Position numbers and translations under genes: made by a program
NCBI GenBank assembly: GCA_032622095.1
Contig: CP136064.1
Location: 212,364,205-212,428,204, forward strand
Length of the DNA stretch: 64,000 nt
Direction of reading: 5' to 3'
Source of the DNA: Siphonodentalium dalli
Lineage: Eukaryota > Mollusca > Scaphopoda > Gadilida > Siphonodentaliidae
Shown: piece by piece, positions 15,101-61,321 of the stretch
Layout: each line of letters starts with the position of its first letter
How positions within the stretch are numbered: the first letter of the stretch is position 1
Notes under the pieces: generated by a model
Told to the model about the DNA's origin: nothing
What the model saw: only the letters and a program-made list of their open reading frames with translations
Databases searched by the model: none

Positions 15101-18100
15101 TTTCATTTCTTCCCTCTGTCTATCCAGCAGGGCTCTCTGATCTTCCTGAAGCTAAAGTTGTGAGAAAATAAGAATAGGCCATTTTGTCATTAGTAGTATT
15201 ATGCTATGATCTGTATTGATTTATGTTAATGTAATTATTAACAAAATAGTACATACAGTAATGCCCTAAATAATCAATCCTTAACCACAGCAGAATTATG
15301 GGTAACTTTTCAGGATTTAGTCGGAAATATGGCTTGTTGCCATTCATCGGAAAGCTCTCACTGAGAGCTTTCCGATGAATGGCAACAAGCCATATTTCCG
15401 ACTAAATCCTGAAAAGTTACCCATAATTCTGCTGTGGTTGAGTCGATTATTTAGAGCATTACTGTAGACCCACGATGAACGTGAACCTTTTTTTTTAGGT
15501 CGTTCCATAGCTGTATGGTCTATGCAGAGACATTCCTAGAGGTTTCAAGTTGGGAGATGTCATTTCTCCCTGTTTGATTATTAGGGAGAAATGGACTGTT
15601 ATCAGTGAGAAGTAACGCCTTCAACATCACCATTCTATGATCCCATAAGTATTATGCAACACAAGGGCCCATTATAAAATCATCATAGTGAGAAAGTTAT
15701 TGCTTGTTATTGTCACGTTTGTATGCCTTGTTATGAAAACAAACATCAAAAACGTTACAGAACCATTTGTTTATAGACAAACACTCAGAACTACTGAATC
15801 GTCCAATGAAAATGTTCTGTTGCACATTGGAAGGCGAAGATAAAATTATTGGTGCCATCAACAATCGCATTCAAGTCACATCTATTTTAATCGACCCATT
15901 CTACCCCCTGTCAGTTCAAAATCCAGGTAATCCACGTTACTTCATGATTGGGAAATGATGAGACAGAAAACGTGTACATAATATAATTGTTCTTGCAAAG
16001 AGATGAATATTTTTCAATCCAGTTAGTATTTTCTCCTAACCTGTATATGGTAATACATACCAAATAAGGAATTTACTATGATAGTATTGTGAGTTCTACT
16101 AGTAAGTTGTAGACACACCAAATTAGGGTTTTTACAACTGACATATAATGCAAGCAAATCTAAAAATGAAATGACGCATTATCGTGACTCTGTTTGCTTA
16201 TAAACAATTCACTGCGCTTTTTGAGAGAAATTAAACAACACTCGACCTGCATTTTCTCTGACACAAAGTGTGTTTTGTGAATAATATTGCATTCATATCA
16301 TCATTATGCTATATAATGGATAGGGATAATTAAACTGTATATCCTTGAGGAAATGATCATAAATTGATAAATGATATTTCTAAATTATAACCTACACCGA
16401 AGGCCGCCCGTCCCTTTAAAGAATGGCCTCTAATGAGTAATGATCTGCCATCGCAACAATGTCTTTCAGTCATGATGTGACTAATAACGCCTATAATTTG
16501 TTCCAAGTAACTAAAATGTTCATGTACAGTTATGCCCTAAATAATGGACTCCTTAACCACAGCAAAATTATGGGTAACTTTTCAGGATTTAGTCGGAAAT
16601 ATGGCTTGTTGCCATTCATCGGAAAGCTCTCAGTGATTCCAGTGATTCCAGTATACCCCCCAACAACTTCGTTAATTCTTCGTTTGAATGGCAACAAGCC
16701 ATATTTCCGATAAAACCTGAACAGTTACTCATAATTCTGCTTTGGTAATGGAGTCGATTATTTAGGGCATTATAGTAGCTGGGAGAGTTAACAGTAGTTG
16801 TGTACATTTGATGTTGCCCATGTCCTTATAATTGAAGATAGTATGTCACTTCAATAACTTCATTAATTAACCCTTTCTATATACTCATTGACAATTACAG
16901 TAATGCCCTAAATAATCAACGCCTTAACCACAGCAGAATTAAGGGTCATTTTTCAGGATTTAGTCGGAAATATGGCTTGTTGCCATTCATTCAGTGTTCT
17001 GGCATATGTGAGGAAGGCGCAGTCACTTAATTTAGTCGATTTGTTCGCGCATGCGCATAGGATACAATGATAAATGTATGGGTTTTTGTGATACAATCAC
17101 ACCAAGGATCCCCACAGCATATGGGTTTGCATTATACAGTTACTCGTTTCGACATTGCATCAGAGTAGTCCTGGGTTGCATGGTCACAATATCATCTAGG
17201 TCGATCTACTTGAGCGTGCGCATTACAAACACGTGTCAAATCTTGCTTTATTGAGCAATTCTGTAAAGTTTAAGACATGTCGCACCATTTGAGCATGACC
17301 ATCTCCATGCCCATATGCGATGTATAAAACGGGACATAATACCATTGTATGCACAGGGAAGTGGTATCATTCGATCACTTGGGGTATATGCTTAGCAACC
17401 ATTGATACCGTTAAATACAAGCTGGGTTCACTCTTCTGACCAGATATATCTCAAATTTCACAACATGGAATTGACTGCACAGAAAATCCAGTTTCTTAGC
17501 GCGGAATTACGACACTATAAGCTATAATTGCATATTACTTTCAATTCCGGGTAGTTGCATAGAAACCGTTACCAGGGAGTGATCATGTGGCAAAGTTTAC
17601 AAATCTTAAAAATACTCTGTTGTCCATTGGAACATAACTGTAAAGTTTCAGACCTGTGGCACCATTTGAACATAACCATCACCATGTGCATGCCATGGAA
17701 TGTCTAAATTGGGGCATAATACACAGGGCAATGGTGTCATTCTATCATTTGGGGTATTTGCTTAGCAACCGTTGCTACCCATAGATACAAGTTAGGTTCA
17801 CTCATCTGGTCAGATAATTCTCAAATTTCACAATAGGGTATTGACTGCCTCAAAATGCCACTTCCTTGGGCTGAATTACGATGATAAAGCTATAATTGTG
17901 TTTTACTTTCAATATCGGGTTGTTGCATAGCAACCGTTACCAGGGAGTGACCATGTGACCAGATCTTAAAATGATCAGTGGTCAATGGGGAACATACCTC
18001 CAAAGTTTCAGACATATGGCACCACTTGAACTTAAACAACACCATAAGTATTATGCCTAAACAATGCCTACAATAAGCCAAGATACCACTGGGAGCCCAG

Positions 18101-24100: not shown

Positions 24101-27100
24101 GATTGGTCTATTATTGGCAAGTTATTACTATCAGTCAATCTGTCAAATTGATGACTAAGAATAAAACACAGTTAAGCTTTCTAAGAGAATCATTTGATAT
24201 GTGGATATATGCTGTTGCATAGTTAGTTAATTCCCATTGATTCATTTGTAGGGATGTTTGGTTAACCTCATCACAGCTGAATGACGTCATGGTTTCTTCT
24301 GCTGAGTGGTGTTGAATATTGCAAAAACCCTAAAACTGACGCCATTGAATTGTTATTATCATTGCCAATCCTGGAACATAATATGTTTCAAACTAGGAGA
24401 TTCAATCTTTCTCCGTATTTTGATGAACATAAGGCATCTTAAATCGCATCCTTCATTAGGAACGTGGGTATTACGGACCATATAGTACTAGTATGCTAAT
24501 GTTATCCGAACATCCCCACAAATGACGAAAAGACCATTCTAATGTATATTTTTAGAACTGAATGGATCCGCTTAAGGAAGGAAAGTTAAGTTTCACCAGA
24601 GCAGTTGTCTAGATGATAGACAGACTTTAATCGGCGAGTTTGTGCATTGACAACTAATCATTATTTGTCTCTTTATACAGCAGTTGATTTGAAAGCATCA
24701 GAGCGCAAACATTTATTCTGCAAAATTAAATGTCATTCTGGCTAAGATGAAAAACATTACCCATATTACACTAAAAAGAACTCGAGATAACTTTAAATAC
24801 AAAATCCGTCACAATTCTTACCTTTGTAAACTCGTCATCACTCGGGCCGTTCATCACAGGAGCTTGTAATCCAGTAGGGGTCACAGGGGTTGTTGCTGGG
24901 GAAACAGGCTGAGCCTGACCATATTTATGACCACCTCCAGGTGGAGACGAATCGGCAGCCTTATTATCGCGTAACACAGGCGGACCATATATGGGACTAG
25001 AACCAGCGTTCTGGACAGCTGAATGGTCGTGAGCGTTTGTTTGATTATATACAGGCACAGAATTCTGTGGTGATCGAAAGCTGTCTGTAGAGTTTGACGG
25101 GTGATTATTGACTGGTATTCGACTGTTTTGGTTAAACGTTTTATTATTAGCACTATTATCAACTGACGACATTTGCTCGTGTCCATTTGGTATTGATGTT
25201 GTGTGATGTGGATATGTCATCCCTGCATCAGAATTCACGTTCCTATTATAATCCTGACCACCAGGCGCCTGATGAGGAGAATGGTGGTTGGTGAATGAAG
25301 TCACATGGTTTTGATTTGTGTTATAATAGTCTGACGTTTCCTCAGGGATCTGTCTATAATGTGTTTCGGCTGAACGAGAGTGGATTGGTTCCCTTCCATG
25401 CCGATGTTCCTTCACAGCCTCGGCAGCTTTCATTGTTAATGCACTGTTAGGGTCCTCATTTTCTGTTGACTGCAAGAATAATATTCAAAATGAAACTAAC
25501 TTATTGATAGACGATACCTACAGCTGTTGACCGAATACAAGAATGATCATGAGTGGGTAACTGAATTATTCACCAGAATTATCATGAGTGGGTAACTGAA
25601 TACCAGAATGATCATGAGTGGGTAACTGAATACCAGAATTATCATGGGTGGGTAATTGAATACCAGAATTATCATATGTGGGTACAAGCAAATATCAATT
25701 TTACCAAGAGCGGCTTGATGCGAGTGGAAAATCAGTATTTGCTTGTTCAAACAAATGACAATTCTCGTATTCAGTCAAAAGCTGTAGGTTTCCTTTTTAT
25801 TATTCACGTCATCAACTCAAATTTATCATTTTTTTCTCTCAGGCGCTTGTTTTGTTAAATTAAATGTAGACGAAAATGAATCAGCTGATGGTCAACAGAC
25901 TACCTTCTATAAAAGAAGCTGCGCTTCGAACTCCTTTTCCGCTCCCCATTAATGTTCGCCAAAAGTGACTTAATATGACAGTTGAATATAATAACAACAC
26001 AGAATAAAGTTCCATTATCAGTCCCACTTTAAATAACATTTTTATAACCTAAAATAGTATGGTGGCTTCATGATGTATTCTTTTAGCTAGAACATGCAAG
26101 AGTGATTCTCTGGCAGTAACGCTATGAAGGTAAATACAAAATGCAAATAACAAAATTGTATATGCCCGCTGGGACAAGCAATTGATACGCCGTTTATTTT
26201 CAGGCCGTTTAGAGCTATTTCACAACATCTAAATTTCAAATATTATGTGATAAGTGTGCTCTTGTCACAAACGTTGATAATCATTCTCAAGCTATTGAAA
26301 TAATCATAATTCCTAATTTTATAACCTAATCCGTGTAAGGAAAAATTAAATAAATAATACATTTTAGCATCTACCTCTGTGCTCTCTGAAAAAATAATTA
26401 TTACCATATTGGCTAGATTTGTACACCTTAATTCATTTGAATGGAGTCTTAGCAATGATCGTTGAGATCCTAAGCAAGTTTGGATGTACATTTACAGCCT
26501 CATTTATAAGCATTCAAGTTATTTAAACGGCTGTGTTTTACTTTTATATGTATATATAAAACCTAATAATGTATACATGTAAAAGAATGGTAGTTTATTA
26601 CAGAGGAATAAAGAATAAATAATGTTGAGTGAGCAGAGCTCAGACAATCTTAGTGTACCCAAATCTACAAATTGTGTGTCTGTCATTGCAGAATGAGGTA
26701 CCCAGAGGATGAATTTAGTGATGCTGTGGCACACAGTGGGCTAGCCTCTGGGGGTCACATTCTGCTTAGGCCTCATCTTCTGGGAAGTATTGATAGTCTC
26801 AAATTAACATTGTTGTTAGTTACTTTTTCCATTCTGGGAAGTATCTTTGTCCCATAATCTAATGACTAATGGGTGAACATCATCAACTTCAACTGAATGA
26901 GGTTCCCAGAGGGCGAATTTAGTAATGCTAGCCTGCCATGCAGGATAGAGTCACTAAATTCACCCTCTGGGGACCTTACTCATCCCCAACAATATACGAC
27001 ATAATTATCCATAATTTTCATCATTATTGTGTAATATATATGTTTATCACATAATTTGGCCATAAAAGCAGTTTCATAATTATCGGTAATAGACACGTTT

Positions 27101-30100
27101 AATATCAGCGCGTGCGATGACGTCACGGCGTTCTTCAAATAACTTGCGATCGCTGTAGTTTATAATTGTTGTTTTCGATGAATATTTCGCGTTGCTTCGG
27201 GTTTATTTGATCATGTGATAAAAGGTATCTCACACTCGTCCTATTTTATACGTAATTTATCAACCTCGTCCTCTAAATTCTATTTGAGCCTCGGTAAACC
27301 TCGGCTCAAATCGAATTTAGTGAACTCGGTTGATAAATTCCGTATAAAATAGAAACTCATGTGAGATCCTCTATTTCTCACATAATTAACCCACAAAACC
27401 AGCTTCATAATTATTGGTAAGAAACATGTGTAATATTAGCGTGTGCGATGATGTTACGCCATTATTTAAATGACTTGCAATCGCTGAAGTTTATGATTGT
27501 TGTTTTCGATGAATACTTTGCGTTGCTTCGCGTTTATTTTACAATGTGATAAAAGGTATATCAAACTCATTCTATTTTATATGTAATTTATCAACCTCGT
27601 CCCCTAAATTCTAATTGAGCCTCGGTAAACCTCGGCTCAAATCGAATTTAGTGAACTTGGTTGATAAATTCTGTATAAAATAGAAACTCATGTGAGATCC
27701 TCTATGTACTGGAAATAAAAAAATATTCTATCCTATCCTCATTCTGCAAATGACAGACACACTATTTACAGGCCTGGATTGATATACCATACCTCAGGCA
27801 TCCAGCCGACCCTCTCAGAGCTGTCCGTTGTACTGTACCCGGAATCGCTACTAATCACAGTGTGCCGTTTCCATCTTAACTCAGGAGAATTCATAATGTT
27901 CTTCCAATCCTCAGCACTGAATCAATATAAAAGGAATTAAGGTTGAAGCAATTTTATTTAATTTTTAATTTTTGTTTTAAACTGTAACCTCTTTTTTGAA
28001 ACAAAATAGATATTGTGCACTGGTGTAGCATTCAAGAATACTGTGACAGTGCATTCTCTTATATATGTGAGTTTCTCATTGGTAGCCTTTCATATATGAG
28101 AGAATTTAATGGCTTACAAGGTCAACATAAATATTTACCTCCCTATGGGAGATTCACATAAGAGAATCTTCAGTCAAGGAAATGTTATATTTCACAAAAG
28201 TCTGATAATTTCGAAATAAATATAATTTTCTTTTGACTCTATATAGAATACACATTTTCAACGTGTCAGGAAATGTTATCAGGATAAATGTTGGAACAAA
28301 AAACAAAACAAAGATGTTTTAATTTGATACTACACGTAGCACCACATGAATTTATAAATCTCTCGGAATCACAATGTGAATGTATTATTCGGAGTTTGAA
28401 TGTAGATTTGGGAGAACTTCTAGTGTCTGGTTCTGTGCTAATGTCATTCTGGCATTTGTGTGGATTTCCAGTGGGAAATTGGGTACATAGGGATATATTG
28501 GCCCTATGTGTCCAAGGGGATATTTTGTCAGGGGAAAGGGATCCTATTAAGAACTCACAACCCCTCTAGCATAAACCATGCATATACAAACATATCTCCA
28601 TATACTTATAAACAGCCTTTATCTATCATAACCAGAGTTATACTTCAGCAGTAAATCAACTTGTAATAAACCATAAGAGAAATTGATTAATGAACTTACT
28701 GATGAGTGGGTAGAGACTTCCTGTATCTCCTCATCTCATTATCGCTGAGGACACCCCGCTTCTTGTCTTCTTTAATGGCTTCCAGCAGTAGATACTTCAT
28801 AATATGCTGCTTTCCCTTAGTGCAGAGCTGAATAATAAAAAAATTAATCAGAGGTCCGTTGAATGTCAAAGCAAAAAGATTTCTAAGTAAACAAAGCCTT
28901 TTTTCCAAAGAATTTTGATATGTCGCGCAATCAGAAAATGTATGTCAATAATATATTAAACGATCGTATCATCACTTTACCTTTTTCTGTCATTGTAAAT
29001 GATATATAATTTAGAAGACATACTAATAACATACATGGCAGATGATTAATCACAACATTCAGGGGTTCATGTCAATGCCTGAACTCCACTTGTAAATGTA
29101 GTACATCTTTTCAATGAAACTCTGTTATAGAAGAGTAACAGGATGGGACTCGGTCCAAAACAGCATCAACCCAACCGATATCCCAAGCCGGTGTGGACAG
29201 AGAAGACTTGGTCTATTACTAGATGTGCTCATGCCAAAGAGATTGGATAAAACACCAAGCTCGGTGACTTCTAACTTACGTGAGCGGGCGGCATGGACAG
29301 AGGGTTGTTCTCTAGACAGATTTCCTCCAGTGTATCCATCTTTCTGAACACGGTCGGTAGGGTTGATATCTTGTTACAAGCGAAGTCCAGTTTCCTCAGG
29401 TTCAGCTTACTGATTTCTATAAAGAAATCACGCATTTTTATTCTACTGAAAATATCAGCAATATTACATCTATATTACGGAAACGGGCCCACTCGCCCCA
29501 GTCGACCTGGGCCAGCTCGCCCCAAGGGATAATGTCTTATTAAAGTTGGTTTCCTTTTGTGTCTTTTTGCTTGCTTTCTCTCTCTCCCTCCCTCTCTCTA
29601 AGTGTTGTCAGGAGATAGATTGGATAATTGTGATAATTATTTATTCGGATGATAACAATAATAACATAAGAACATATATACATAATAATATGAAACAGCA
29701 AATTTAGGAGCGTCTGATAGGATTGAGTACCTTTATGTATAACATATTACGGCTAAAAAATGGTTTTGGTTCTCATGTCCTGTCGCACGAAATAATATGC
29801 AAAGTGTTGGGCATTTTTATTTTGATGTCTGCATAATGTTACGACATAAAGGTTTGTTTCAAATATTTTAGTATATTTCACTAACATGTCCAGTGATATG
29901 TATCGGGCAGTGGTGTGCAAAAAATATTGGATCTGACATACAGTCTGACTCAGAGGTGACTTATGTCTACATATATAACATAACATGAAGTAGATGCCTA
30001 CACATTTAAGAAAAATGATTAATTGCTTGTTATTTATCGTACCATTTGTTTGGTAGATGGACAATTTTTTGTTAAATTTTGATTCCGTCACGGCGAAACA

Positions 30101-44816: not shown

Positions 44817-46157
44817 CTGAAATAAAAAAAAATCTTGATAAATTAAACAGACACGGCTCATTTGAACCCCAAAATTTTGTATACATAATTTGGAAAGAGG
44901 AAGCTCAAACATACCAAGTTGAAGATTTCGGAACTTTTCGTAGATATAGTGCTGAAAATACGTGTTTTGTTTCTGATATTTTTTGATAAATTTGAGATCG
45001 TTTCAAATTTTGTAATCAGCAGTCGTGTAAAAACGGCACATGACATGGGAATAACATAAACAGCTAGCTGTCTTCGCTCTGAAACTTTTATGGAAGTACA
45101 TGTACATAATTTAGACGATTAAAACAAAGAGAAAGAATAGCATAGTTCTTTAATTGATTCATCTTTAGATTACACAATGGACCTTTTCAGGAAGTCGGTC
45201 TTTTTTTTGTTTCCGTTTCCAGAATTGCAATGAAATCAAATGTCGCAATATTTTATCAGGACCCGATCACCATTTTCGAAGTTATATTTTTAATGACTTC
45301 AATGTGTCGCTCTGGGACATATAATGCTCATAGAAAGGTAGTTCAGGTATTTATCAACCTATTTCAGATACCAGGAAAAATTCAAAAGTGAATATTATAA
45401 GGTGTATTTTGGAGCTCAATCCGACATGTGACTTTAACAAACAGCACCAATAAACATATATGAGTAATGCTGGAGGAATTGTGTTAATTGGAGATCTGAC
45501 ATTTTGATCAGGAAACACAAAGCCTGTAATCATTCATCTGTGATTTAATTGACTTGATGAAAGTGATGATTTAACAGCCCATTAAATTATCTTGAGTAAC
45601 CATCCAGCATTGTCAGACCCTAAGGGAAATTATTATTTTAATTCCTGTTCAGTTTAATCTGTATTCATCCTTTTTGTGAATAAAAGGATTTATTTTTTAA
45701 TTTGTTCGAGAAAAAAATCAGTACTAATAGCAAGCTATTGTAACATTTTTAGCTTTCCAAAATCACTTTTAACCCCCTAATAACTAATTCCCAGAGATGA
45801 GTAGTTACTAGATTTTCATTGATTCAGTTAATAGTTAAACTGATGTGGAACACTCTGTCTGAACACTGGGTGTAAAGAATTGAGATGCAAATAATCTTGC
45901 CCAAATTAGTCACATAAATTTGATATTGGCCTGAAAAAGCGTCTTTGTTATCAACGATGTACATGCACTGAATATTATTGGCATAACCATTATATTTAAC
46001 ACCCAATAGTTCGTCCCGAATAAAGAATTACATTTGTGCATAGTTCAGACGCTGTGTTCTTTGAAATGGCATAGCAAATTTGATATTATCAACAATCTTA
46101 GTTAATTGATACATTCTTCAAGTCAAGATGGTGTTTGGGGACTAACTTCTCAGTTTT
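44817..46157. other. upstream intron of LRCH, mostly unrecognised
   Basis: No exon with LRCH N-terminal features found. From about 45.93 kb it holds a diverged copy of the 19.4-19.7 kb repeat. Confidence 0.5.
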
Positions 46158-47513
46158 ATTCACTGAAATAAGTCCATAAAATGTCTGTAATCAATTGGAG
46201 TTTAATGTCACTGTTAATCAAGATTTGTGATGCAAGAGAAGACATAATTTTGGGCTACTTTAATTTAATACTCCTCTCACTTTTTGAAGACTTCTACGTC
46301 AGGCAGTGACTAGGTACCGTGGTTCTATTCTTTACTTCATGCTAGAAAATGTCCCACGACTAAATACATTTGCCTCATTCTCACACGGGAGACATCATTA
46401 GGCCTATACCACTTTTTGCTGAACCCATTAGCTCAATATCCTACAAGTGGATCTCCAGAATAACTCTGCCTGTATCTGGGATCTGACTTATTTCCATTTG
46501 AAACCTCTTGTATTAGGGAAAAACAGTCCTTCCCTACTTCCGCAATTCAAAAGTTGGGTGTAAATTCACAGTAATTGCACCCATTGTATAATCGTAAGTT
46601 GGGTTTTTCTAAAAAAAAATGTTGTTGTGGAATAGACCAGTGTCCAGACAGTCCAGTTACACTTTCACATGTCCATAATTGAACTGTCTCAGATCTGATT
46701 ACAGTCACTAAAAGCATGTTTACAAGAGGGACCAGTGCGAAGAATTTTAGCACCCGTGAATTAATAATTGAGAGTGCGTACGGGTGCGAGAACAATCACT
46801 CCCGTCTCCTGGGAAGGACTGGGCAAAACATATAGTTGATGATGTTCTATGAGCAAATTGAAAATGTAATACATGATATCCAATACCGGTACGTCTCAAA
46901 GGTTAATCAGTAAATGTTCTTTATTTGAATGTAAATTGGAGTATATATCAAATTTATTTGTTATGTCACAACAAACATTAAAAAAAAATAAACAAACAAG
47001 CAAATAAAAAAATGAATTGGCTCCCACTTGACAAATGAGTTGACTAATCTATCATTCGAAAGGGTTAGTATCTGGACAATAAGGTGGTGTCTACTTCTCC
47101 TTGTTTACTGTGGAGACATTCCAACTAATGTTAGCTCTTCAAATATGCACCTCCAACAATGTCCAAAGATACATATGTACATAAGTCATTATACAGGGGA
47201 GGGTATGTTTTTCACTTAACTGACTGAATTAAAACTGTTTAAAGAGCGTAACTACAAAGAGACTAAGTCCTTTAGTGCACTTCGCCCATTGATATCCTGC
47301 ATACATAATTCATATATCAGCCACACTCAGGCCACATTTAAAAATATCTTTGTTTCCCCTGACCCTACCCTAAATTTCAAGAATGAGTAGGTAGGTATGA
47401 GGTCATTGTTTTTTGTACAGTTACAAGTAATCACAGAACATGTTTAATAATTAACAAGAGCATTGCAAGGGCATGGCAAAATGTGTGGTAATTGAATGCG
47501 TTTATTCTCTGAT

Positions 47514-47800
47514 CAACAAAACAAAGGTGAAAATTGGCGAGCAGAACCCAAATTCAAAATTGACCTGTATTTTGGGCTAGTAAACTCACAAACCAAATTT
47601 CATTCCATTCAGTTCAGTCTTACTAAAGTTATCATCCGGAAATGAAAATTGAGTGCAAATACCAACAAAAAGGACCATATAATTCTGATGAAAATTGGCA
47701 GGCGGAACCTGAATTCGAACTTCATTCAATTCAGTTGAGACAATTTTAAAGTTATCATCAGGAAACTAAAAACTAACCAACAGATGGACAGACAAATCAA
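47514..47800. repeat. dispersed repeat segment (copy in unit 1)
   Basis: Two related ~140-bp halves with CAAAGGTGAAAATTGGCG or CTGATGAAAATTGGCAGGCG, then AAAGTTATCATCxGGAAA. Related to 38.5 kb. Duplicated at 54,847-55,133. Confidence 0.6.
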
Positions 47801-48749
47801 AAACATAATATTATGTCCTGTTTTTGTTTTTTAAGAATGAGCATATAAAAAATTGATCTATTCATCTAAATAGCATGTAGCATATATCTTGGAAGCTAAG
47901 TTAAAGAAAAAATTAGATTTTAATTGATTTCAATTTTTCTATTCATTTTTTTATCATCCAGATTGAAAAGAATAAAAATTCTCTCTGAGAAGCCAATAAA
48001 CTATTTTGAGTGGGGAGGTTTTTTTTAGGTTAGGGGAAACAACAACATTTTAATTCTGGCCTCAGCTGTACTCATGGCAAAAGAGGACAAGTATGGGAAA
48101 GTCATTACAATGTATGAATTTATGGCTGCTAATATCTTGGTCCATTACAAATACTATTGAATATACTTTATTCTTATCTCCCCTTTGTGTTATAAGAATA
48201 CTATATAGATCTTCCCAGAAGTGTCTTGGGTTATTAATCCTCTACAATAACAATAGCGTTAGAAGGGATAGTATACATACATGTACTAGACCTGTTGACC
48301 CTCGGGGTAAACCTTTTTAATAAATCTGGCGATCAATCAAAGATCTTATCTTTTACGAGGTGTATGTTGAAGAAATTCTCCCTCATACTATGCCTTATAT
48401 GAAATCATAACAATGAGTGTATAAATAACAATGCTTTCTCATGTAGTTAGTTATTCATGATTATATATGGTAGTAGTAAGTTTTATCACTTCCCCTCAAG
48501 TATAAACACTTGACCCTAACAACTATATGACTAGAAAGCAGTGTATCTTGTTGAGTCAGGCTTCTGGGAACAACCATGTGAATGTTATCAAGTGCAAGGT
48601 CAATGACACTACACATGTTAGTCTTCCTATAAAAACAATTAGCAAATAAACAAGTACATAAGAAAGTATGACTTGATACAACTGTCCTGTCACGGTCACT
48701 GACAGCTTGAACCCCACAAAAGCTCTTGATAAATGTTGAACAAGCCTCC

Positions 48750-49129
48750 AAATAGTGTCTGTCATTCGCAGAATGAGGTCCCCAGAGGGTGAATTTAGTG
48801 ACGCTACCCACACAGCTGGCTAGCATCACCAAATTCACCCTCTGGGGACCTCATTCTGCTTAGGCCTCATCTTCTGGGAAGTTTCTTTATCCCCTAATTT
48901 GCAGAAGATAAAATGCATAATCGAGGTGACCAATGGGTGAACATCACCATCAACTTCAACAGAGAAACTTCAATCTGATGCTAGGTCTCCCATAGCATAG
49001 GCCTCAGCCTAAGCATAATGAGGTTCCCAGTCAGAAGGTGAATTTGGTGATGTTAGCCAGCAGTGTGGGGTAGTGTCACTGAATTCACCCTCTGGGGACC
49101 TCATTCAGGAAATGATAGACACACTATTT
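48750..49129. mobile_element. double-hairpin miniature element, family A, copy 6
   Basis: CAAATAGTGTCTGTCATTCG at the left and GATAGACACACTATTTG at the right. Both hairpins are present, the spacer shortened by about 40 bp. Confidence 0.87.
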
Positions 49130-49437
49130 GCAGGTTAATCTCAAACACTCACCTAATACAATCCGCATGTTACAGACTCAGACTGAATCTTTATGCTGTA
49201 GTCTCTTAGTGTTCAAGAGAATAAGACACAAAACACGTTTCTTTCATCAGTCCCGACCTTACCCTCGGTTTCATATAATCAAAATGAAGCAAGCATGTAC
49301 CGCCATGTTCAAGGTTTAATGTAACCGGCAATCAACAATAGTGGGCAATCTATGATTGCTGTAATATCCCCTTGATCGGATAATCCTATATCACAGCAAT
49401 TCTATCCGATCAACACAAGTTACACAACATATACTAG

Positions 49438-49653
49438 TACAGTAATGCCCTAAATAATCGACTCATTAACCACAGCAGAATTATGGGTAACTTTTCAGGA
49501 TTGACGTAGATTAATAGAACTTTTCAGAATTTAGTCGGAAATCACTGAGAGCTTTCCGATGAATGGCAACAAGCCATATTTCCGACTAAATCCTGAAAAG
49601 TTACCCATAATTCTGCTGTGGTTAAGGAGTCGATTATTTAGGGCATTACTGTA
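49438..49653. mobile_element. TA-type palindromic miniature element, family C, copy 5, rearranged
   Basis: Ends TACAGTAATGCCCTAAATAA and its complement. The left arm is interrupted by TTGACGTAGATTAATAGAAC at 49,501-49,520, followed by a second CTTTTCAG(A)ATTTAGTCGG, and lacks the ATATGGCTTGTT part. Confidence 0.87.
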
Positions 49654-49860
49654 GCTTCGCATGGAGTTTTGCACGGTATAAATTTTGAGTACAGCAGCAA
49701 AGTTTCTCAACACAGCACAATAACTGCGCAGTGACAAGGGCACATAGGTCTTTAGCACTGTCATTAGAGATGATCCGACCCTTATTCCATTCATTAAACC
49801 CATTCAATAATAATGATAGACATCTGCCATTGTAAAACAGGAAATAGTACCAGGTGTACC

Positions 49861-49949
49861 GAAATGTATTATTGTTGTGAAATGTATTATTGTTGTGAAA
49901 TGTATTATTGTTGTGAAATGTATTATTGTTGTGAAATGTATTATTGTTG
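49861..49949. repeat. 18-bp minisatellite, 5 units
   Basis: GAAATGTATTATTGTTGT repeated five times, the last ending TTGA. It reads as NNNTFH repeats on the minus strand, which I regard as non-coding. Confidence 0.92.
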
Positions 49950-51116
49950 AGCAAACATGACATTTGACTCGGCCCAGACCTAATTTACTGGACTTGTTTC
50001 GTAAATTTCTGGGGACTCATTGTAGATCTTCTATCTATACCATTAGAGAGTTGTCATTTGTCTAGGACAAGATGTCTTAGGTTGACGTAGATTAATAGAA
50101 CATCGTCTACTAGTACGGTAATGATTATACCCCCAATCTCCGAAGGAGGTTCAGGGCACAGGGCATAAACAGAAATGTAGATGAGGCCTCTGTCCATCTA
50201 TCCATCAGTACAAATATATCACCTTGTAACTCAGGTGTTAATTATAAGATTTCATTGTCTTTTGGTATGGTGATAGCCAAGCTTGTGGGAAAGGATATCC
50301 ACATACTATGATTTCGCCTATATATTTATGCAAGAGTTACAACCCTTGTTAGACTTGCTATATGATGCATATATGAATACAAAACATCATGATTCGTCTA
50401 ATGGGCTTTTCATGCAGTCAACGGGATTGCTTTATCTGCATAGTTTTCTCATTTCTAACCATATACATGTACATTGAGTTTCTCCCCTGGTCAAGTGAAT
50501 TGGCCTGTATGCATAGCTTTCTCCTTTGTAGCAATTTCTTTATGGATGCACCAGGGTGCATTGTAACAAAGACAAAGGCTTAATCAATTAGTTAGCAATT
50601 GGCATCTTATCTTTCTGAGACAAACAAAGGGTTGTATTGGAATGAGATAGACTTGGAGCCAGTCTGGATTTCTGTTTTATGAGGAGTTATTACCATATGA
50701 TGTTATGATGGATTAATCTATTTAGCTGATTAATTGATTAGTGTGCGAAACAAGGTGTCCCAAGTTAGCAATCTCTCTGCTATTAATTGCATAATAAATC
50801 CAACATCAAACTCAATCATGGAATTAACACTCAACACTGAGGAGTGAGTAGGTACCAGTGATGTTATTGTTTCGGAATAGCTACATCATCAAAGTGCACT
50901 CAAAACAGCAAATGATCTCTCCTAAATGTGAAAATATGCTTTCTTTCTACAGATTGTCTGACACATGTGAAGGCACTAAACTCAAGTCTGCTAAGGGTTT
51001 CTTCTTTGCCAAGGAAATTATATCTCTTGAACTTGATATATACCAATGTCAAGGCTAGAAGGAACAAAATGTGTGCAGTTGTGTCCCTTTGATTTTTACA
51101 GTGTAGCCAAGCCTTG

Positions 51117-51256
51117 AAATAGCGTTTCTGACATTTGCAGAATGAGGTCCCCAGAGGGTGAATTTAGTGATGCTAGCCTCCCGTGACTCTGTGGGGTAGC
51201 AACACTAAATTCACACTCTGGGGCCTCATTCTGCAGATAACAGATACACAATTTCA
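51117..51256. mobile_element. solo-hairpin form of family A
   Basis: Outer ends AAATAGCGTTTCTGACATTT GC and GATAACAGATACACAATTT enclose one hairpin only (GCAGAATGAGGTCCCCAGAG to CCTCATTCTGC), with no spacer or second hairpin. Confidence 0.83.
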
Positions 51257-51302
51257 AGCCTAAAGGGTATCTAAAACTATAGTGAGTAAAATATATGTTG
51301 CC

Positions 51303-52920
51303 AGGGGACCAGCCTAGAGGGCGACTAAGGATATACTAGTTTCTTCTCCCTAAATTATATCACTTCTCCCTATTTTGTTCCAGGGAGAAGTGATTTCTCT
51401 CTCATATACCAGTATGCATATGTCCAAACAGAATATTTAAACTGTATATTCATTTATAATGGTGTCCTTACTCATTAATATAATCATTTTATAAGGCCTG
51501 GTAACAATAAAAAAATTGCTAGCTTTTCATCCCCGCCCCGCCCGCCCGCCCGCTGCGAATTTTAGGGCTTGCCCCGAAATTTTGTATTATTAAATGCTAA
51601 AAATTGCCAATGGACTGATATGTATTGCCAAGATAAACTCACGTTGTTTATAAAAAAAAACGGATATGAAAATGATTATTCAGAATTTATACCGACAGTT
51701 CCACAAAATCAATCTAAGGGGCGTAATTCTATACGCAATTGTAAACACAATAGCACGTGAAAAATACAAGAAAATACAAATCGTTTTTGTGATTTTACGA
51801 TTGCAATCGGCCGGCACCCTTACAATAAAAGATTGGTATGGGTGCAACGGTCGATGATTCGACAACCGTAGTTGATGTCTACCACCTATACACGGGAGGA
51901 AAACTTGACAACACCGCTCCAGTCGGTGATATGCCATCACAATTTCGTGCAAGTGCTGGTCGGAGCAAAACAGTCCGCACACAATGCTGCCCGACAAGTC
52001 CCATTGGAGACGTCGTTGGCTTTCTGGGACCATTATATATATACAATTCGACCCAGACATTCAAATAATAAGGTCAAGAAAGATGCATTTCAGTTACTCA
52101 TGTTGGTCAGCAACAAAGCCATTCATCTGCCCGAGAAGGCTGCCAACCCGGTGGTGAATGATAAGTTTAAGTTACGGAATGACATTATTGACTGGTTGAA
52201 AAAAACAACAGATCGGATTCTATATCAACAATGTGGACAGACTTGGTAAAAGTTCTGTGAACATCCTATGTGACACGCTCTGGTATATACTGCCCATGTA
52301 GTGGGCCTATGTTTCAAAGTAACTTTTAAAAAGAATAATATATCAATGAATTCAATATGTGTTTCTATTTCAAATTAATATATACAGAAAATATACTTTG
52401 TGTCATTGTCTCTTCATCCCTATGACGTATCTGTGAATGCACTTGTTTCCCACATATAATATTGAACTCAAAAGTTCAAAGACATTCACATCACAAAATT
52501 TATATCAGAGAGAGAGGTACAGGTAATGCCCCCTATCTTACCAGGGTAACATACTGCGACAGATAAATTGGTTAATTGGACATGCTGATGTTCCTATCAA
52601 TGCATTGAACAATTGATAGTTAGATCCACGATTCCGCCTTATTATTTATACTTGGAAAAATAAAAATATGCCCCCCCCCCCCCCACTTTAAAAACAAAAA
52701 GTGGATGAAAATCTATCATTTTTTTTATTGTGGCCTAAAAATCCTATTGTATTGCATTATACATGTACTTATTGAATCATAGAATGGTAATATTGGGAGT
52801 AAATTGTTCTGGAACCTTTATTATATCTCCTTGATACATGTAACAGTCCACTTCTCCCTAATAATCCAAAAGAGAGAAGTGACTTCTCCCATTTTGAAAC
52901 CTCTGGGCTGGTCCCTGTTT
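51303..52920. mobile_element. ~1.6-kb inverted-repeat element with GGGAGAAGTG hairpins
   Basis: AGGGGACCAGCCTAGAGGGC at the left and CCTCTGGGCTGGTCCCTG at the right are inverted. Just inside each end is a hairpin of CTTCTCCCT/AGGGAGAAG type (51,358-51,395; 52,852-52,890). The interior holds a CCCG run, a 14-C tract and an unidentified ORF. Boundary precision is about 10 bp. Confidence 0.55.
51872..52249 (+). pseudogene. unidentified ORF, 125 codons, possible transposon or captured-gene fragment
   Basis: I do not recognise this protein. The composition is more protein-like than other frames here (VLVGAKQSAHNAARQVPLE; NDKFKLRNDIIDWLKKTTDR). A stop lies just before the first ATG, and the other frames directly upstream are also open, which could reflect a frameshifted longer reading frame. 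It lies inside a 1.6-kb inverted-repeat element, so a decayed transposon gene is the simplest guess. There is no splice evidence, and a chance ORF is possible. Confidence 0.25.
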
Positions 52921-54846
52921 GATGCCCATGAAAATGTCCCCTGGCTATTCTACTATTATTTACTTGAACCTTGGCAACATTCCCTGGGTTGTAGAACAAA
53001 ATTGGGATATTACAATTGTGAAGTTGGATGAAGTCAATTAGAAAATAGGAACATTTATCATATAAATCATGCCTGCCAAAAGTTATCACCATTGGCTTTT
53101 GTTTGTAAAAATTATGTCACAGGCTGTGGCAGCTAGGTTACAGACATCATTATCGGGCTGGTTTTCTAGTGTTATAGTCATTTGTGTGTTGGTTGGTTTT
53201 CTATCCATCTGGGTTCAAAGAACTAATTTAGTCTTATATATTGTATGTACTGGATAATGAAAGTGTCAATGACACTGTAACTCAACTTGGAGAGAGGATA
53301 ATGTCATAAATTACAGTTAATGGAGCAATCAAGAATGTGGAAAGTTTAAATGTTTAAGCAATAGCAGATGTTAACCCACCACTTGGCGATAGTAAATTAC
53401 TATGATCGGAATCATAAATGAGAGTTTTGATGTTGAATTATAGAGTATACTGTTATGTACTATTATAGACAAATGTACATAACACAAATTATTCACTGAA
53501 ATAAGTCCATAAAATGTCTGTAATCAATTGGAGTTTAATGTCACTGTTAATCAAGATTTGTGATGCAAGAGAAGACATAATTTTGGGCTACTTTAATTTA
53601 ATACTCCTCTCACTTTTTGAAGACTTCTACGTCAGGCAGTGACTAGGTACCGTGGTTCTATTCTTTACTTCATGCTAGAAAATGTCCCACGACTAAATAC
53701 ATTTGCCTCATTCTCACACGGGAGACATCATTAGGCCTATACCACTTTTTGCTGAACCCATTAGCTCAATATCCTACAAGTGGATCTCCAGAATAACTCT
53801 GCCTGTATCTGGGATCTGACTTATTTCCATTTGAAACCTCTTGTATTAGGGAAAAACAGTCCTTCCCTACTTCCGCAATTCAAAAGTTGGGTGTAAATTC
53901 ACAGTAATTGCACCCATTGTATAATCGTAAGTTGGGTTTTTCTAAAAAAAAATGTTGTTGTGGAATAGACCAGTGTCCAGACAGTCCAGTTACACTTTCA
54001 CATGTCCATAATTGAACTGTCTCAGATCTGATTACAGTCACTAAAAGCATGTTTACAAGAGGGACCAGTGCGAAGAATTTTAGCACCCGTGAATTAATAA
54101 TTGAGAGTGCGTACGGGTGCGAGAACAATCACTCCCGTCTCCTGGGAAGGACTGGGCAAAACATATAGTTGATGATGTTCTATGAGCAAATTGAAAATGT
54201 AATACATGATATCCAATACCGGTACGTCTCAAAGGTTAATCAGTAAATGTTCTTTATTTGAATGTAAATTGGAGTATATATCAAATTTATTTGTTATGTC
54301 ACAACAAACATTAAAAAAAAATAAACAAACAAGCAAATAAAAAAATGAATTGGCTCCCACTTGACAAATGAGTTGACTAATCTATCATTCGAAAGGGTTA
54401 GTATCTGGACAATAAGGTGGTGTCTACTTCTCCTTGTTTACTGTGGAGACATTCCAACTAATGTTAGCTCTTCAAATATGCACCTCCAACAATGTCCAAA
54501 GATACATATGTACATAAGTCATTATACAGGGGAGGGTATGTTTTTCACTTAACTGACTGAATTAAAACTGTTTAAAGAGCGTAACTACAAAGAGACTAAG
54601 TCCTTTAGTGCACTTCGCCCATTGATATCCTGCATACATAATTCATATATCAGCCACACTCAGGCCACATTTAAAAATATCTTTGTTTCCCCTGACCCTA
54701 CCCTAAATTTCAAGAATGAGTAGGTAGGTATGAGGTCATTGTTTTTTGTACAGTTACAAGTAATCACAGAACATGTTTAATAATTAACAAGAGCATTGCA
54801 AGGGCATGGCAAAATGTGTGGTAATTGAATGCGTTTATTCTCTGAT

Positions 54847-55133
54847 CAACAAAACAAAGGTGAAAATTGGCGAGCAGAACCCAAATTCAAAATTGACCTG
54901 TATTTTGGGCTAGTAAACTCACAAACCAAATTTCATTCCATTCAGTTCAGTCTTACTAAAGTTATCATCCGGAAATGAAAATTGAGTGCAAATACCAACA
55001 AAAAGGACCATATAATTCTGATGAAAATTGGCAGGCGGAACCTGAATTCGAACTTCATTCAATTCAGTTGAGACAATTTTAAAGTTATCATCAGGAAACT
55101 AAAAACTAACCAACAGATGGACAGACAAATCAA
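54847..55133. repeat. dispersed repeat segment (copy in unit 2)
   Basis: Identical to 47,514-47,800. Confidence 0.6.
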
Positions 55134-56082
55134 AAACATAATATTATGTCCTGTTTTTGTTTTTTAAGAATGAGCATATAAAAAATTGATCTATTCATCT
55201 AAATAGCATGTAGCATATATCTTGGAAGCTAAGTTAAAGAAAAAATTAGATTTTAATTGATTTCAATTTTTCTATTCATTTTTTTATCATCCAGATTGAA
55301 AAGAATAAAAATTCTCTCTGAGAAGCCAATAAACTATTTTGAGTGGGGAGGTTTTTTTTAGGTTAGGGGAAACAACAACATTTTAATTCTGGCCTCAGCT
55401 GTACTCATGGCAAAAGAGGACAAGTATGGGAAAGTCATTACAATGTATGAATTTATGGCTGCTAATATCTTGGTCCATTACAAATACTATTGAATATACT
55501 TTATTCTTATCTCCCCTTTGTGTTATAAGAATACTATATAGATCTTCCCAGAAGTGTCTTGGGTTATTAATCCTCTACAATAACAATAGCGTTAGAAGGG
55601 ATAGTATACATACATGTACTAGACCTGTTGACCCTCGGGGTAAACCTTTTTAATAAATCTGGCGATCAATCAAAGATCTTATCTTTTACGAGGTGTATGT
55701 TGAAGAAATTCTCCCTCATACTATGCCTTATATGAAATCATAACAATGAGTGTATAAATAACAATGCTTTCTCATGTAGTTAGTTATTCATGATTATATA
55801 TGGTAGTAGTAAGTTTTATCACTTCCCCTCAAGTATAAACACTTGACCCTAACAACTATATGACTAGAAAGCAGTGTATCTTGTTGAGTCAGGCTTCTGG
55901 GAACAACCATGTGAATGTTATCAAGTGCAAGGTCAATGACACTACACATGTTAGTCTTCCTATAAAAACAATTAGCAAATAAACAAGTACATAAGAAAGT
56001 ATGACTTGATACAACTGTCCTGTCACGGTCACTGACAGCTTGAACCCCACAAAAGCTCTTGATAAATGTTGAACAAGCCTCC

Positions 56083-56462
56083 AAATAGTGTCTGTCATTC
56101 GCAGAATGAGGTCCCCAGAGGGTGAATTTAGTGACGCTACCCACACAGCTGGCTAGCATCACCAAATTCACCCTCTGGGGACCTCATTCTGCTTAGGCCT
56201 CATCTTCTGGGAAGTTTCTTTATCCCCTAATTTGCAGAAGATAAAATGCATAATCGAGGTGACCAATGGGTGAACATCACCATCAACTTCAACAGAGAAA
56301 CTTCAATCTGATGCTAGGTCTCCCATAGCATAGGCCTCAGCCTAAGCATAATGAGGTTCCCAGTCAGAAGGTGAATTTGGTGATGTTAGCCAGCAGTGTG
56401 GGGTAGTGTCACTGAATTCACCCTCTGGGGACCTCATTCAGGAAATGATAGACACACTATTT
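56083..56462. mobile_element. family A copy 6, duplicate in unit 2
   Basis: Identical to 48,750-49,129 by tandem duplication. Confidence 0.87.
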
Positions 56463-56770
56463 GCAGGTTAATCTCAAACACTCACCTAATACAATCCGCA
56501 TGTTACAGACTCAGACTGAATCTTTATGCTGTAGTCTCTTAGTGTTCAAGAGAATAAGACACAAAACACGTTTCTTTCATCAGTCCCGACCTTACCCTCG
56601 GTTTCATATAATCAAAATGAAGCAAGCATGTACCGCCATGTTCAAGGTTTAATGTAACCGGCAATCAACAATAGTGGGCAATCTATGATTGCTGTAATAT
56701 CCCCTTGATCGGATAATCCTATATCACAGCAATTCTATCCGATCAACACAAGTTACACAACATATACTAG

Positions 56771-56986
56771 TACAGTAATGCCCTAAATAATCGACTCATT
56801 AACCACAGCAGAATTATGGGTAACTTTTCAGGATTGACGTAGATTAATAGAACTTTTCAGAATTTAGTCGGAAATCACTGAGAGCTTTCCGATGAATGGC
56901 AACAAGCCATATTTCCGACTAAATCCTGAAAAGTTACCCATAATTCTGCTGTGGTTAAGGAGTCGATTATTTAGGGCATTACTGTA
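56771..56986. mobile_element. family C copy 5, duplicate in unit 2
   Basis: Identical to 49,438-49,653, including the 20-bp insert. Confidence 0.87.
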
Positions 56987-57193
56987 GCTTCGCATGGAGT
57001 TTTGCACGGTATAAATTTTGAGTACAGCAGCAAAGTTTCTCAACACAGCACAATAACTGCGCAGTGACAAGGGCACATAGGTCTTTAGCACTGTCATTAG
57101 AGATGATCCGACCCTTATTCCATTCATTAAACCCATTCAATAATAATGATAGACATCTGCCATTGTAAAACAGGAAATAGTACCAGGTGTACC

Positions 57194-57282
57194 GAAATGT
57201 ATTATTGTTGTGAAATGTATTATTGTTGTGAAATGTATTATTGTTGTGAAATGTATTATTGTTGTGAAATGTATTATTGTTG
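57194..57282. repeat. 18-bp minisatellite, duplicate
   Basis: Same five units in duplication unit 2; the equal unit number supports a very recent copy. Confidence 0.92.
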
Positions 57283-58449
57283 AGCAAACATGACATTTGA
57301 CTCGGCCCAGACCTAATTTACTGGACTTGTTTCGTAAATTTCTGGGGACTCATTGTAGATCTTCTATCTATACCATTAGAGAGTTGTCATTTGTCTAGGA
57401 CAAGATGTCTTAGGTTGACGTAGATTAATAGAACATCGTCTACTAGTACGGTAATGATTATACCCCCAATCTCCGAAGGAGGTTCAGGGCACAGGGCATA
57501 AACAGAAATGTAGATGAGGCCTCTGTCCATCTATCCATCAGTACAAATATATCACCTTGTAACTCAGGTGTTAATTATAAGATTTCATTGTCTTTTGGTA
57601 TGGTGATAGCCAAGCTTGTGGGAAAGGATATCCACATACTATGATTTCGCCTATATATTTATGCAAGAGTTACAACCCTTGTTAGACTTGCTATATGATG
57701 CATATATGAATACAAAACATCATGATTCGTCTAATGGGCTTTTCATGCAGTCAACGGGATTGCTTTATCTGCATAGTTTTCTCATTTCTAACCATATACA
57801 TGTACATTGAGTTTCTCCCCTGGTCAAGTGAATTGGCCTGTATGCATAGCTTTCTCCTTTGTAGCAATTTCTTTATGGATGCACCAGGGTGCATTGTAAC
57901 AAAGACAAAGGCTTAATCAATTAGTTAGCAATTGGCATCTTATCTTTCTGAGACAAACAAAGGGTTGTATTGGAATGAGATAGACTTGGAGCCAGTCTGG
58001 ATTTCTGTTTTATGAGGAGTTATTACCATATGATGTTATGATGGATTAATCTATTTAGCTGATTAATTGATTAGTGTGCGAAACAAGGTGTCCCAAGTTA
58101 GCAATCTCTCTGCTATTAATTGCATAATAAATCCAACATCAAACTCAATCATGGAATTAACACTCAACACTGAGGAGTGAGTAGGTACCAGTGATGTTAT
58201 TGTTTCGGAATAGCTACATCATCAAAGTGCACTCAAAACAGCAAATGATCTCTCCTAAATGTGAAAATATGCTTTCTTTCTACAGATTGTCTGACACATG
58301 TGAAGGCACTAAACTCAAGTCTGCTAAGGGTTTCTTCTTTGCCAAGGAAATTATATCTCTTGAACTTGATATATACCAATGTCAAGGCTAGAAGGAACAA
58401 AATGTGTGCAGTTGTGTCCCTTTGATTTTTACAGTGTAGCCAAGCCTTG

Positions 58450-58589
58450 AAATAGCGTTTCTGACATTTGCAGAATGAGGTCCCCAGAGGGTGAATTTAG
58501 TGATGCTAGCCTCCCGTGACTCTGTGGGGTAGCAACACTAAATTCACACTCTGGGGCCTCATTCTGCAGATAACAGATACACAATTTCA
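58450..58589. mobile_element. solo-hairpin family A, duplicate
   Basis: Identical to 51,117-51,256 in duplication unit 2. Confidence 0.83.
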
Positions 58590-58635
58590 AGCCTAAAGGG
58601 TATCTAAAACTATAGTGAGTAAAATATATGTTGCC

Positions 58636-60253
58636 AGGGGACCAGCCTAGAGGGCGACTAAGGATATACTAGTTTCTTCTCCCTAAATTATATCACTTCT
58701 CCCTATTTTGTTCCAGGGAGAAGTGATTTCTCTCTCATATACCAGTATGCATATGTCCAAACAGAATATTTAAACTGTATATTCATTTATAATGGTGTCC
58801 TTACTCATTAATATAATCATTTTATAAGGCCTGGTAACAATAAAAAAATTGCTAGCTTTTCATCCCCGCCCGCCCGCCCGCCCGCTGCGAATTTTAGGGC
58901 TTGCCCCGAAATTTTGTATTATTAAATGCTAAAAATTGCCAATGGACTGATATGTATTGCCAAGATAAACTCACGTTGTTTATAAAAAAAAACGGATATG
59001 AAAATGATTATTCAGAATTTATACCGACAGTTCCACAAAATCAATCTAAGGGGCGTAATTCTATACGCAATTGTAAACACAATAGCACGTGAAAAATACA
59101 AGAAAATACAAATCGTTTTTGTGATTTTACGATTGCAATCGGCCGGCACCCTTACAATAAAAGATTGGTATGGGTGCAACGGTCGATGATTCGACAACCG
59201 TAGTTGATGTCTACCACCTATACACGGGAGGAAAACTTGACAACACCGCTCCAGTCGGTGATATGCCATCACAATTTCGTGCAAGTGCTGGTCGGAGCAA
59301 AACAGTCCGCACACAATGCTGCCCGACAAGTCCCATTGGAGACGTCGTTGGCTTTCTGGGACCATTATATATATACAATTCGACCCAGACATTCAAATAA
59401 TAAGGTCAAGAAAGATGCATTTCAGTTACTCATGTTGGTCAGCAACAAAGCCATTCATCTGCCCGAGAAGGCTGCCAACCCGGTGGTGAATGATAAGTTT
59501 AAGTTACGGAATGACATTATTGACTGGTTGAAAAAAACAACAGATCGGATTCTATATCAACAATGTGGACAGACTTGGTAAAAGTTCTGTGAACATCCTA
59601 TGTGACACGCTCTGGTATATACTGCCCATGTAGTGGGCCTATGTTTCAAAGTAACTTTTAAAAAGAATAATATATCAATGAATTCAATATGTGTTTCTAT
59701 TTCAAATTAATATATACAGAAAATATACTTTGTGTCATTGTCTCTTCATCCCTATGACGTATCTGTGAATGCACTTGTTTCCCACATATAATATTGAACT
59801 CAAAAGTTCAAAGACATTCACATCACAAAATTTATATCAGAGAGAGAGGTACAGGTAATGCCCCCTATCTTACCAGGGTAACATACTGCGACAGATAAAT
59901 TGGTTAATTGGACATGCTGATGTTCCTATCAATGCATTGAACAATTGATAGTTAGATCCACGATTCCGCCTTATTATTTATACTTGGAAAAATAAAAATA
60001 TGCCCCCCCCCCCCCCCACTTTAAAAACAAAAAGTGGATGAAAATCTATCATTTTTTTTATTGTGGCCTAAAAATCCTATTGTATTGCATTATACATGTA
60101 CTTATTGAATCATAGAATGGTAATATTGGGAGTAAATTGTTCTGGAACCTTTATTATATCTCCTTGATACATGTAACAGTCCACTTCTCCCTAATAATCC
60201 AAAAGAGAGAAGTGACTTCTCCCATTTTGAAACCTCTGGGCTGGTCCCTGTTT
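58636..60253. mobile_element. ~1.6-kb inverted-repeat element, duplicate
   Basis: Copy of 51,303-52,920 in duplication unit 2, differing by one C in each of the two C-rich runs. Confidence 0.55.
59204..59581 (+). pseudogene. unidentified ORF, duplicate copy
   Basis: Identical in every residue to the ORF at 51,872-52,249, because it lies in duplication unit 2. Confidence 0.25.
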
Positions 60254-60834
60254 GATGCCCATGAAAATGTCCCCTGGCTATTCTACTATTATTTACTTGA
60301 ACCTTGGCAACATTCCCTGGGTTGTAGAACAAAATTGGGATATTACAATTGTGAAGTTGGATGAAGTCAATTAGAAAATAGGAACATTTATCATATAAAT
60401 CATGCCTGCCAAAAGTTATCACCATTGGCTTTTGTTTGTAAAAATTATGTCACAGGCTGTGGCAGCTAGGTTACAGACATCATTATCGGGCTGGTTTTCT
60501 AGTGTTATAGTCATTTGTGTGTTGGTTGGTTTTCTATCCATCTGGGTTCAAAGAACTAATTTAGTCTTATATATTGTATGTACTGGATAATGAAAGTGTC
60601 AATGACACTGTAACTCAACTTGGAGAGAGGATAATGTCATAAATTACAGTTAATGGAGCAATCAAGAATGTGGAAAGTTTAAATGTTTAAGCAATAGCAG
60701 ATGTTAACCCACCACTTGGCGATAGTAAATTACTATGATCGGAATCATAAATGAGAGTTTTGATGTTGAATTATAGAGTATACTGTTATGTACTATTATA
60801 GACAAATGTACATAACACAAATTATTGGATTTAT

Positions 60835-60920
60835 GGGTCACTCGCATGTAGATAAGAGAATGCACTGGTACATGATATGTAATGCTGCACCACCACAGCC
60901 TTGGGTTAAATGGGAAAAAG
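60835..60920. mobile_element. family B fragment at right edge of duplication
   Basis: CTCGCATGTAGATAAGAGAA TGCACTGG, then TAATGCTGCACCACCACAG: the end of a family B element without termini, starting about 12 bp outside duplication unit 2. Confidence 0.55.
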
Positions 60921-61321
60921 GTGACCTGGACATGGAATACTTGGGTTAAGAGAGTCAAATTTAAGTTTACAAGGATAGTGTATCAAATTATACCAACACC
61001 CATCAAGATAAAGACACCTCACTGCTGACCCACTAATATCAATTATATAGCAGAGCTGTCAACAAATCACAGACATTGTTTATATTGATGCTGGCATCAT
61101 CTCTATTAAACCAATAAAATTTATAATGACCTCAGGCCATCTGTCGAGTGATATACTCAGTGATATACATAGCTTTCTTTATTTGCACATTGGCATAAGA
61201 GACATCAGAAAATAAAATCGCCTTAACAATAGCTAAGTAGTCCAAAGGCATGGGATGGAATTGATGAATTGGGTTTAAAGTCACTCCAAACAAATTTACC
61301 AGTACATAACACAAGATTATG

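Follow-up and report, generated by a model that had tools for sequence, protein, structure and literature searches.

The locus and its duplicated segment

The window analysed here is a 64,000-nucleotide stretch of the genome of the scaphopod mollusc Siphonodentalium dalli (C4:212364205-212428204; the assembly comprises 2.23 Gb in 9 contigs). It contains part of a gene resembling LRCH on the minus strand and, upstream of the exons recognized, a 7,333-bp segment that is present twice, head to tail. Matches to an LRCH query place LRCH-like exons at 44820-44647, 36973-36833, 34363-34262 and 29417-29250, and the first of these encodes a leucine-rich repeat (Pfam LRR_4, 27.1 bits against a cut-off of 27). 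The coordinates of the features discussed are collected in Table 1.

Comparison of the window with itself revealed a continuous direct match between positions 46156-53493 and 53489-60826. The offset between the matching positions is 7333 on either side of two compensating one-base gaps and 7332 only between them. The 7,339 aligned columns contain these two gaps and no mismatch; without the two extra Cs, the units agree at all of 7,332 bases. An exact match of such length is far beyond chance, and the rule of three, computed for 7,331 bases, sets an upper bound of ~4.1e-4 substitutions per site. Both gaps fall in runs of C, one of them in the longest homopolymer of copy 1 (A9 ranks next). Fifteen stop-to-stop open reading frames (ORFs; at least 70 aa) of copy 1 recur in copy 2, and the number of minisatellite units is the same in both. 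These results bear out what the first-pass annotation had claimed on three points, namely a 7,333-bp head-to-tail duplication, two single-C length differences in C-rich runs as the only ones, and agreement in minisatellite unit number and open frames. It had placed the duplication at 46158-60823 with the junction at 53490/53491; this is the same duplication set 2 bp along, within the ambiguity that the TTATT sequence described below allows.

When five ORFs of the unit were compared with Pfam no domain was found at or above the cut-off, and four of the five had no match at all. The match of the fifth to Pox_E8 (16 bits against a cut-off of 27) was taken as chance. Each unit also holds a palindromic dispersed element (49438-49653 and 56771-56986) with 65-nt arms that are 98% complementary; it is related to the sequence at 15251-15466 and to sequence in several of the loci fetched from the same genome.

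Table 1. Features of the window and near-identical local duplications elsewhere in the genome
Feature	Position	Strand	Size	Remarks
LRCH exon 2 (leucine-rich repeat)	44672-44816	-		flanked by AG acceptor and GT donor
Old dispersed repeat through left outer edge	45956-46190			limits approximate; left limit is the query start
Unit, copy 1	46156-53488		7,333 bp	placement can slide up to 5 bp to the right
Minisatellite of 18 bp, copy 1	49861-49949		4.9 copies	same at 57194-57282 in copy 2
C4 run in CCCG-rich tract, copy 1	51536-51539			C3 at 58869-58871 in copy 2
C14 homopolymer, copy 1	52671-52684			C15 at 60003-60017 in copy 2
Internal junction, TTATT	53489-53493		5 bp	same 5 bp at 46156-46160 and 60822-60826
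Unit, copy 2	53489-60821		7,333 bp	
Young dispersed repeat through right outer edge	60697-61280	+		right limit is the query end
Case 1	C4:63145086/63149517		4.4 kb	1 mismatch, 3 gap bases
Case 2	C1:31182103/31189663		5,395 bp	offset 7560; 2 mismatches
Case 3	C1:52006129/52007514		1,383 bp	2 mismatches, 9 gap bases
Case 4	C1:65905975/65906156		181 bp	inside right-edge repeat; 2 mismatches
Case 5	C1:120244122/120244555		433-bp unit	2 mismatches
Case 6	C1:122932017/122936446		about 4.4-4.5 kb	7 mismatches; two aligned pieces (99.2% and 97.0% with gaps)

Junction and outer edges of the duplication

The same five bases, TTATT, stand directly after the left flank, at the internal junction and after the right end, and for this reason both edges can be shifted jointly by up to 5 bp. 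No extended homology was found between the two breakpoints, which have just these 5 bp in common; unequal crossing-over between repeats (nonallelic homologous recombination) is therefore not indicated and was rejected as the origin of the duplication. An overlap of at least 5 bp occurred by chance in 0.67% of 321,904 random breakpoint pairs drawn from window sequence to the left of the unit, and in 0.69% of the pairs of a local control taken within 400 bp of the true breakpoints. The junction microhomology of 5 bp thus lies above chance (P about 0.007, for one junction only). A short overlap is what microhomology-mediated joining predicts, and its presence favours a real event over a flush artefact, though it concerns a single junction.

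The outer edges were studied by comparing 601 bp at each of them with the genome of the same animal, scoring the best 40 of 1,689 candidates for the left edge and the best 40 of 3,826 for the right edge. The left edge gave 38 matches besides both copies, which belong to a dispersed repeat with 72-79% identity, and 37 of the 38 cross position 46156. For the right edge 40 non-self rows were obtained with 91-98% identity, 39 of which cross position 60826. As these repeats run through both outer edges and are interrupted at the internal junction, the outer edges look undisturbed and 53488/53489 appears to be the sole new adjacency. The unit includes no more than the first 130 bp of the right-edge repeat; in copy 1 these occupy 53364-53493, and the repeat is cut at 53493. 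When the best 40 candidates were scored for each of two stretches inside the unit, 46260-47260 (1,001 bp) and 50150-51050 (901 bp), just the two copies matched over the full length and the remaining rows were partial matches to dispersed repeats; within that scope no third copy of the unit was seen.

Members of the right-edge repeat family have close same-strand neighbours on C1, for example at 119684954-119687430. Among the first 100 places listed for this family, eight pairs within 10 kb are on the same strand and none is on opposite strands, and two have identical flanks. The flank GGGTAAACAT precedes the 5' end of the repeat in 9 of 100 listed places, and its recurrence suggests that elements stand as head-to-tail dimers or that a particular repeat is favoured as a target.

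Gene context

An N-terminal LRCH query had one scored match in the genome, at C4:212455746-212455868 on the minus strand (E 0.01). This candidate exon 1 corresponds to window-equivalent coordinates 91542-91664, about 31 kb beyond the unit. The one base between the end of its frame and a GT donor supplies what the first codon of exon 2 lacks behind the AG acceptor. By this weak match, exon 1 likely lies at a window-equivalent ~91.6 kb, in phase with exon 2. Given this exon 1, intron 1 would extend from 91540 to 44817 (46,724 bp in the assembly, counting both copies), which supports the view that the whole duplication is inside LRCH intron 1. Inside the unit, an LRCH query gave no significant match to exon 1. 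Of the two placements that had been offered for the duplication, the 5' region or the first intron of LRCH, the upstream and phase-matching likely exon 1 supports the intron.

LRCH is expected to carry a CH domain. No such domain was found with a CH query in the window or the next 10 kb, and the name LRCH hence rests on the leucine-rich part of the gene; it was given on the basis of these queries together with the naming in the first-pass annotation.

Other local duplications in the same genome

Six further near-identical direct local duplications surfaced via listed copies of the right-edge repeat, and their DNA was fetched and aligned. They were reached through one repeat family only and are not one random sample. 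Their matched lengths range from 181 bp to 5.4 kb at 97.0-99.9% identity (gaps counted), and their substitution divergence from about 0.02 to 1.1%. Variation of this kind in divergence and size would be expected if tandem duplication is ongoing, and overlapping contigs would be a poor explanation for units of 181-1,383 bp.

The junctions of these cases, read by eye, show 2-8 bp of microhomology or short insertions in some instances. The copies of case 1 have 8 bp (TCAAATTT) in common at the junction, plus one extra G; in a control of 200,000 random pairs in which a one-base shift was allowed, overlaps of at least 8 bp and at least 5 bp were obtained in 0.06% and 2.2%, respectively. In case 6 about 5 bp are shared, and a short insertion there is similar to sequence close by; case 3 shares about 3 bp if small differences are tolerated, case 5 shares 2 bp and case 4 none. 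In case 2 the left edge is lost at an N run: it adjoins exactly 100 N (C1:31182003-31182102), and the copies are not adjacent as assembled. This was the one N run in the 27 fetched loci, and its round length suggests a scaffold gap. The first copy of case 2 may be incomplete and the assembly may be incomplete there.

Among 300 listed repeat places, three pairs (cases 2, 5 and 6) have identical 11-base flanks and lie no more than 20 kb apart, all in the same orientation; inverted young pairs within that distance numbered zero. Since these places are the first 100 each of 1,004, 346 and 209, from C1 up to C4, and one of the three lists gave no pair, such rates are rough. It is a tentative and rather doubtful suggestion that this genome turns over local tandem duplications unusually fast, with on the order of 1% in near-identical local duplications, at least partly microhomology-mediated.

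Further close same-strand pairs among the listed places carry different flanks. Identical 11-base flanks of the right-edge repeat were also seen 249-360 kb apart, at C3:86423680/86768405, C2:116504614/116753446 and C3:10458096/10817726; two of these distant pairs are direct and one is inverted, and they are possibly longer-range segmental duplications. A cluster of partial matches at C6:66787178-66787651 recurs with the same scores ~397 kb away at 67184372-67184845, possibly another segmental duplication. Within the window, 27043-27705 holds two tandem copies of a 331-bp unit that are 88% alike, an older local tandem duplication, and 42297-42674 is a minisatellite of about three 121-bp units with related sequence in one fetched locus, which is probably dispersed.

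Tandem duplication or assembly artefact

The tandem structure, the identity of the copies, the intact outer edges, the 5-bp overlap and the lack of extended homology fit microhomology-mediated joining or template switching. We consider it probable that a 7,333-bp piece of LRCH intron 1 was duplicated in tandem very recently and by way of microhomology, and we infer from the assembled sequence the presence of the duplication in the animal, the way it was joined and its age. It would have arisen in a single event that linked two TTATT sites separated by 7.3 kb. From the TTATT of the young repeat, which forms the right breakpoint, a DNA end or a replication fork would have reached back to the TTATT of the older repeat, either by joining or by re-priming there, leaving two copies of the interval. 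Junctions of non-recurrent copy-number changes are reported to carry microhomologies, blunt ends and short insertions (PMC3447954), and microhomology or short insertions were also read at some junctions of the six comparison cases.

The main competing explanation, which we regard as unlikely, is a false duplication from one and the same haplotype (homotype), in which two assembly pieces with an overlap of 7.3 kb were joined without merging it, or the segment was repeated along a wrong path, with consensus errors in the C runs. Such an origin would agree with the fact that the copies differ in C runs only, one of which is the longest homopolymer of the unit. Such false duplications are documented, with sequencing errors as a minor source and incorrect gap filling as another named cause (PMC9516828); in the same study, false copies were most often separated by a gap. 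No N letters occur in the window or the next 10 kb, whereas the one N run in the fetched loci is exactly 100 N long, and the junction therefore most likely lies within one contig, unless a gap was filled, which N content would not reveal. Moreover, a flush artefact predicts chance overlap at the junction, whereas an above-chance overlap was observed, and the other near-identical local duplications vary in divergence and size, including units of 181, 433 and 1,383 bp. Placement of both alleles of the segment in tandem (heterotype false duplication) is the main error class in that study of diploid assemblies (PMC9516828), but here it is very improbable: with no substitution in 7,332 aligned bases the alleles would need to be identical, and the copies overlap at the junction with no gap between them. 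The two C-run differences could in principle be allelic. Thus, of the pair of readings put forward in the first-pass annotation, a recent duplication or a false haplotype duplication, the recent true duplication is favoured, and the haplotype version is disfavoured by the zero substitutions and the gapless junction. Least credible of all, and rejected, is the idea of a mobile-element insertion, with the unit as the element and the two copies as a head-to-tail dimer. It could appeal to the position of the right edge in a dispersed repeat and to the close same-strand neighbours of that repeat family; both outer edges, however, lie inside other repeats and away from element ends, the 1,001- and 901-bp stretches are whole only in the two copies (best 40 candidates), and the five ORFs lack a Pfam domain at or above the cut-off.

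Several points nevertheless weigh against a real, microhomology-mediated duplication. Both differences between the copies are in C-rich runs and none is a substitution, which makes them as much like consensus errors as like mutations, and the analysis covered one assembly of one individual. One of the six comparison cases adjoins a 100-N run, so that duplication and assembly trouble can coincide. Microhomology is mixed among these cases: one has a strictly flush overlap of 2 bp and another of 0 bp, and the readings of 8, about 5 and about 3 bp, which depend on extra bases or small differences, were arrived at post hoc; with the one-base shift allowed, at least 5 bp are reached by chance in the 2.2% given above. 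A variant compatible with a true duplication is that the array has at least three copies, or varies among individuals, and that the assembly shows two of them. Identical tandem units are easily collapsed in assembly, and unequal exchange between them is expected; the similar case with offset 7560 starts at a 100-N run. This variant seems to us rather improbable.

Significance and comparison with known systems

The effect of the duplication is probably that intron 1 was lengthened by 7.3 kb, and no more. No function is indicated for it, and as a kind of mutation it is already known, being an ordinary non-coding intronic tandem duplication. As a single event it is of little weight; its main use is to illustrate a young junction cleanly or to test the assembly. 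Should the sampled 1% hold genome-wide, this genome of 2.2 Gb would owe much length variation to tandem duplication.

With homotype false duplications (PMC9516828), the present case has in common the near-identical copies and differences of the sequencing-error type; it differs in that there is no gap between the copies and an overlap at the junction. It resembles non-recurrent microhomology copy-number variants (PMC3447954) in its lack of long breakpoint homology and its short junction microhomology, whereas here the mechanism is deduced from one junction in one assembled genome. In Drosophila yakuba and D. simulans, tandem duplications segregate in natural populations (PMC4503668), while the present one comes from one assembly; like them, it is tandem, no longer than 25 kb and recent.
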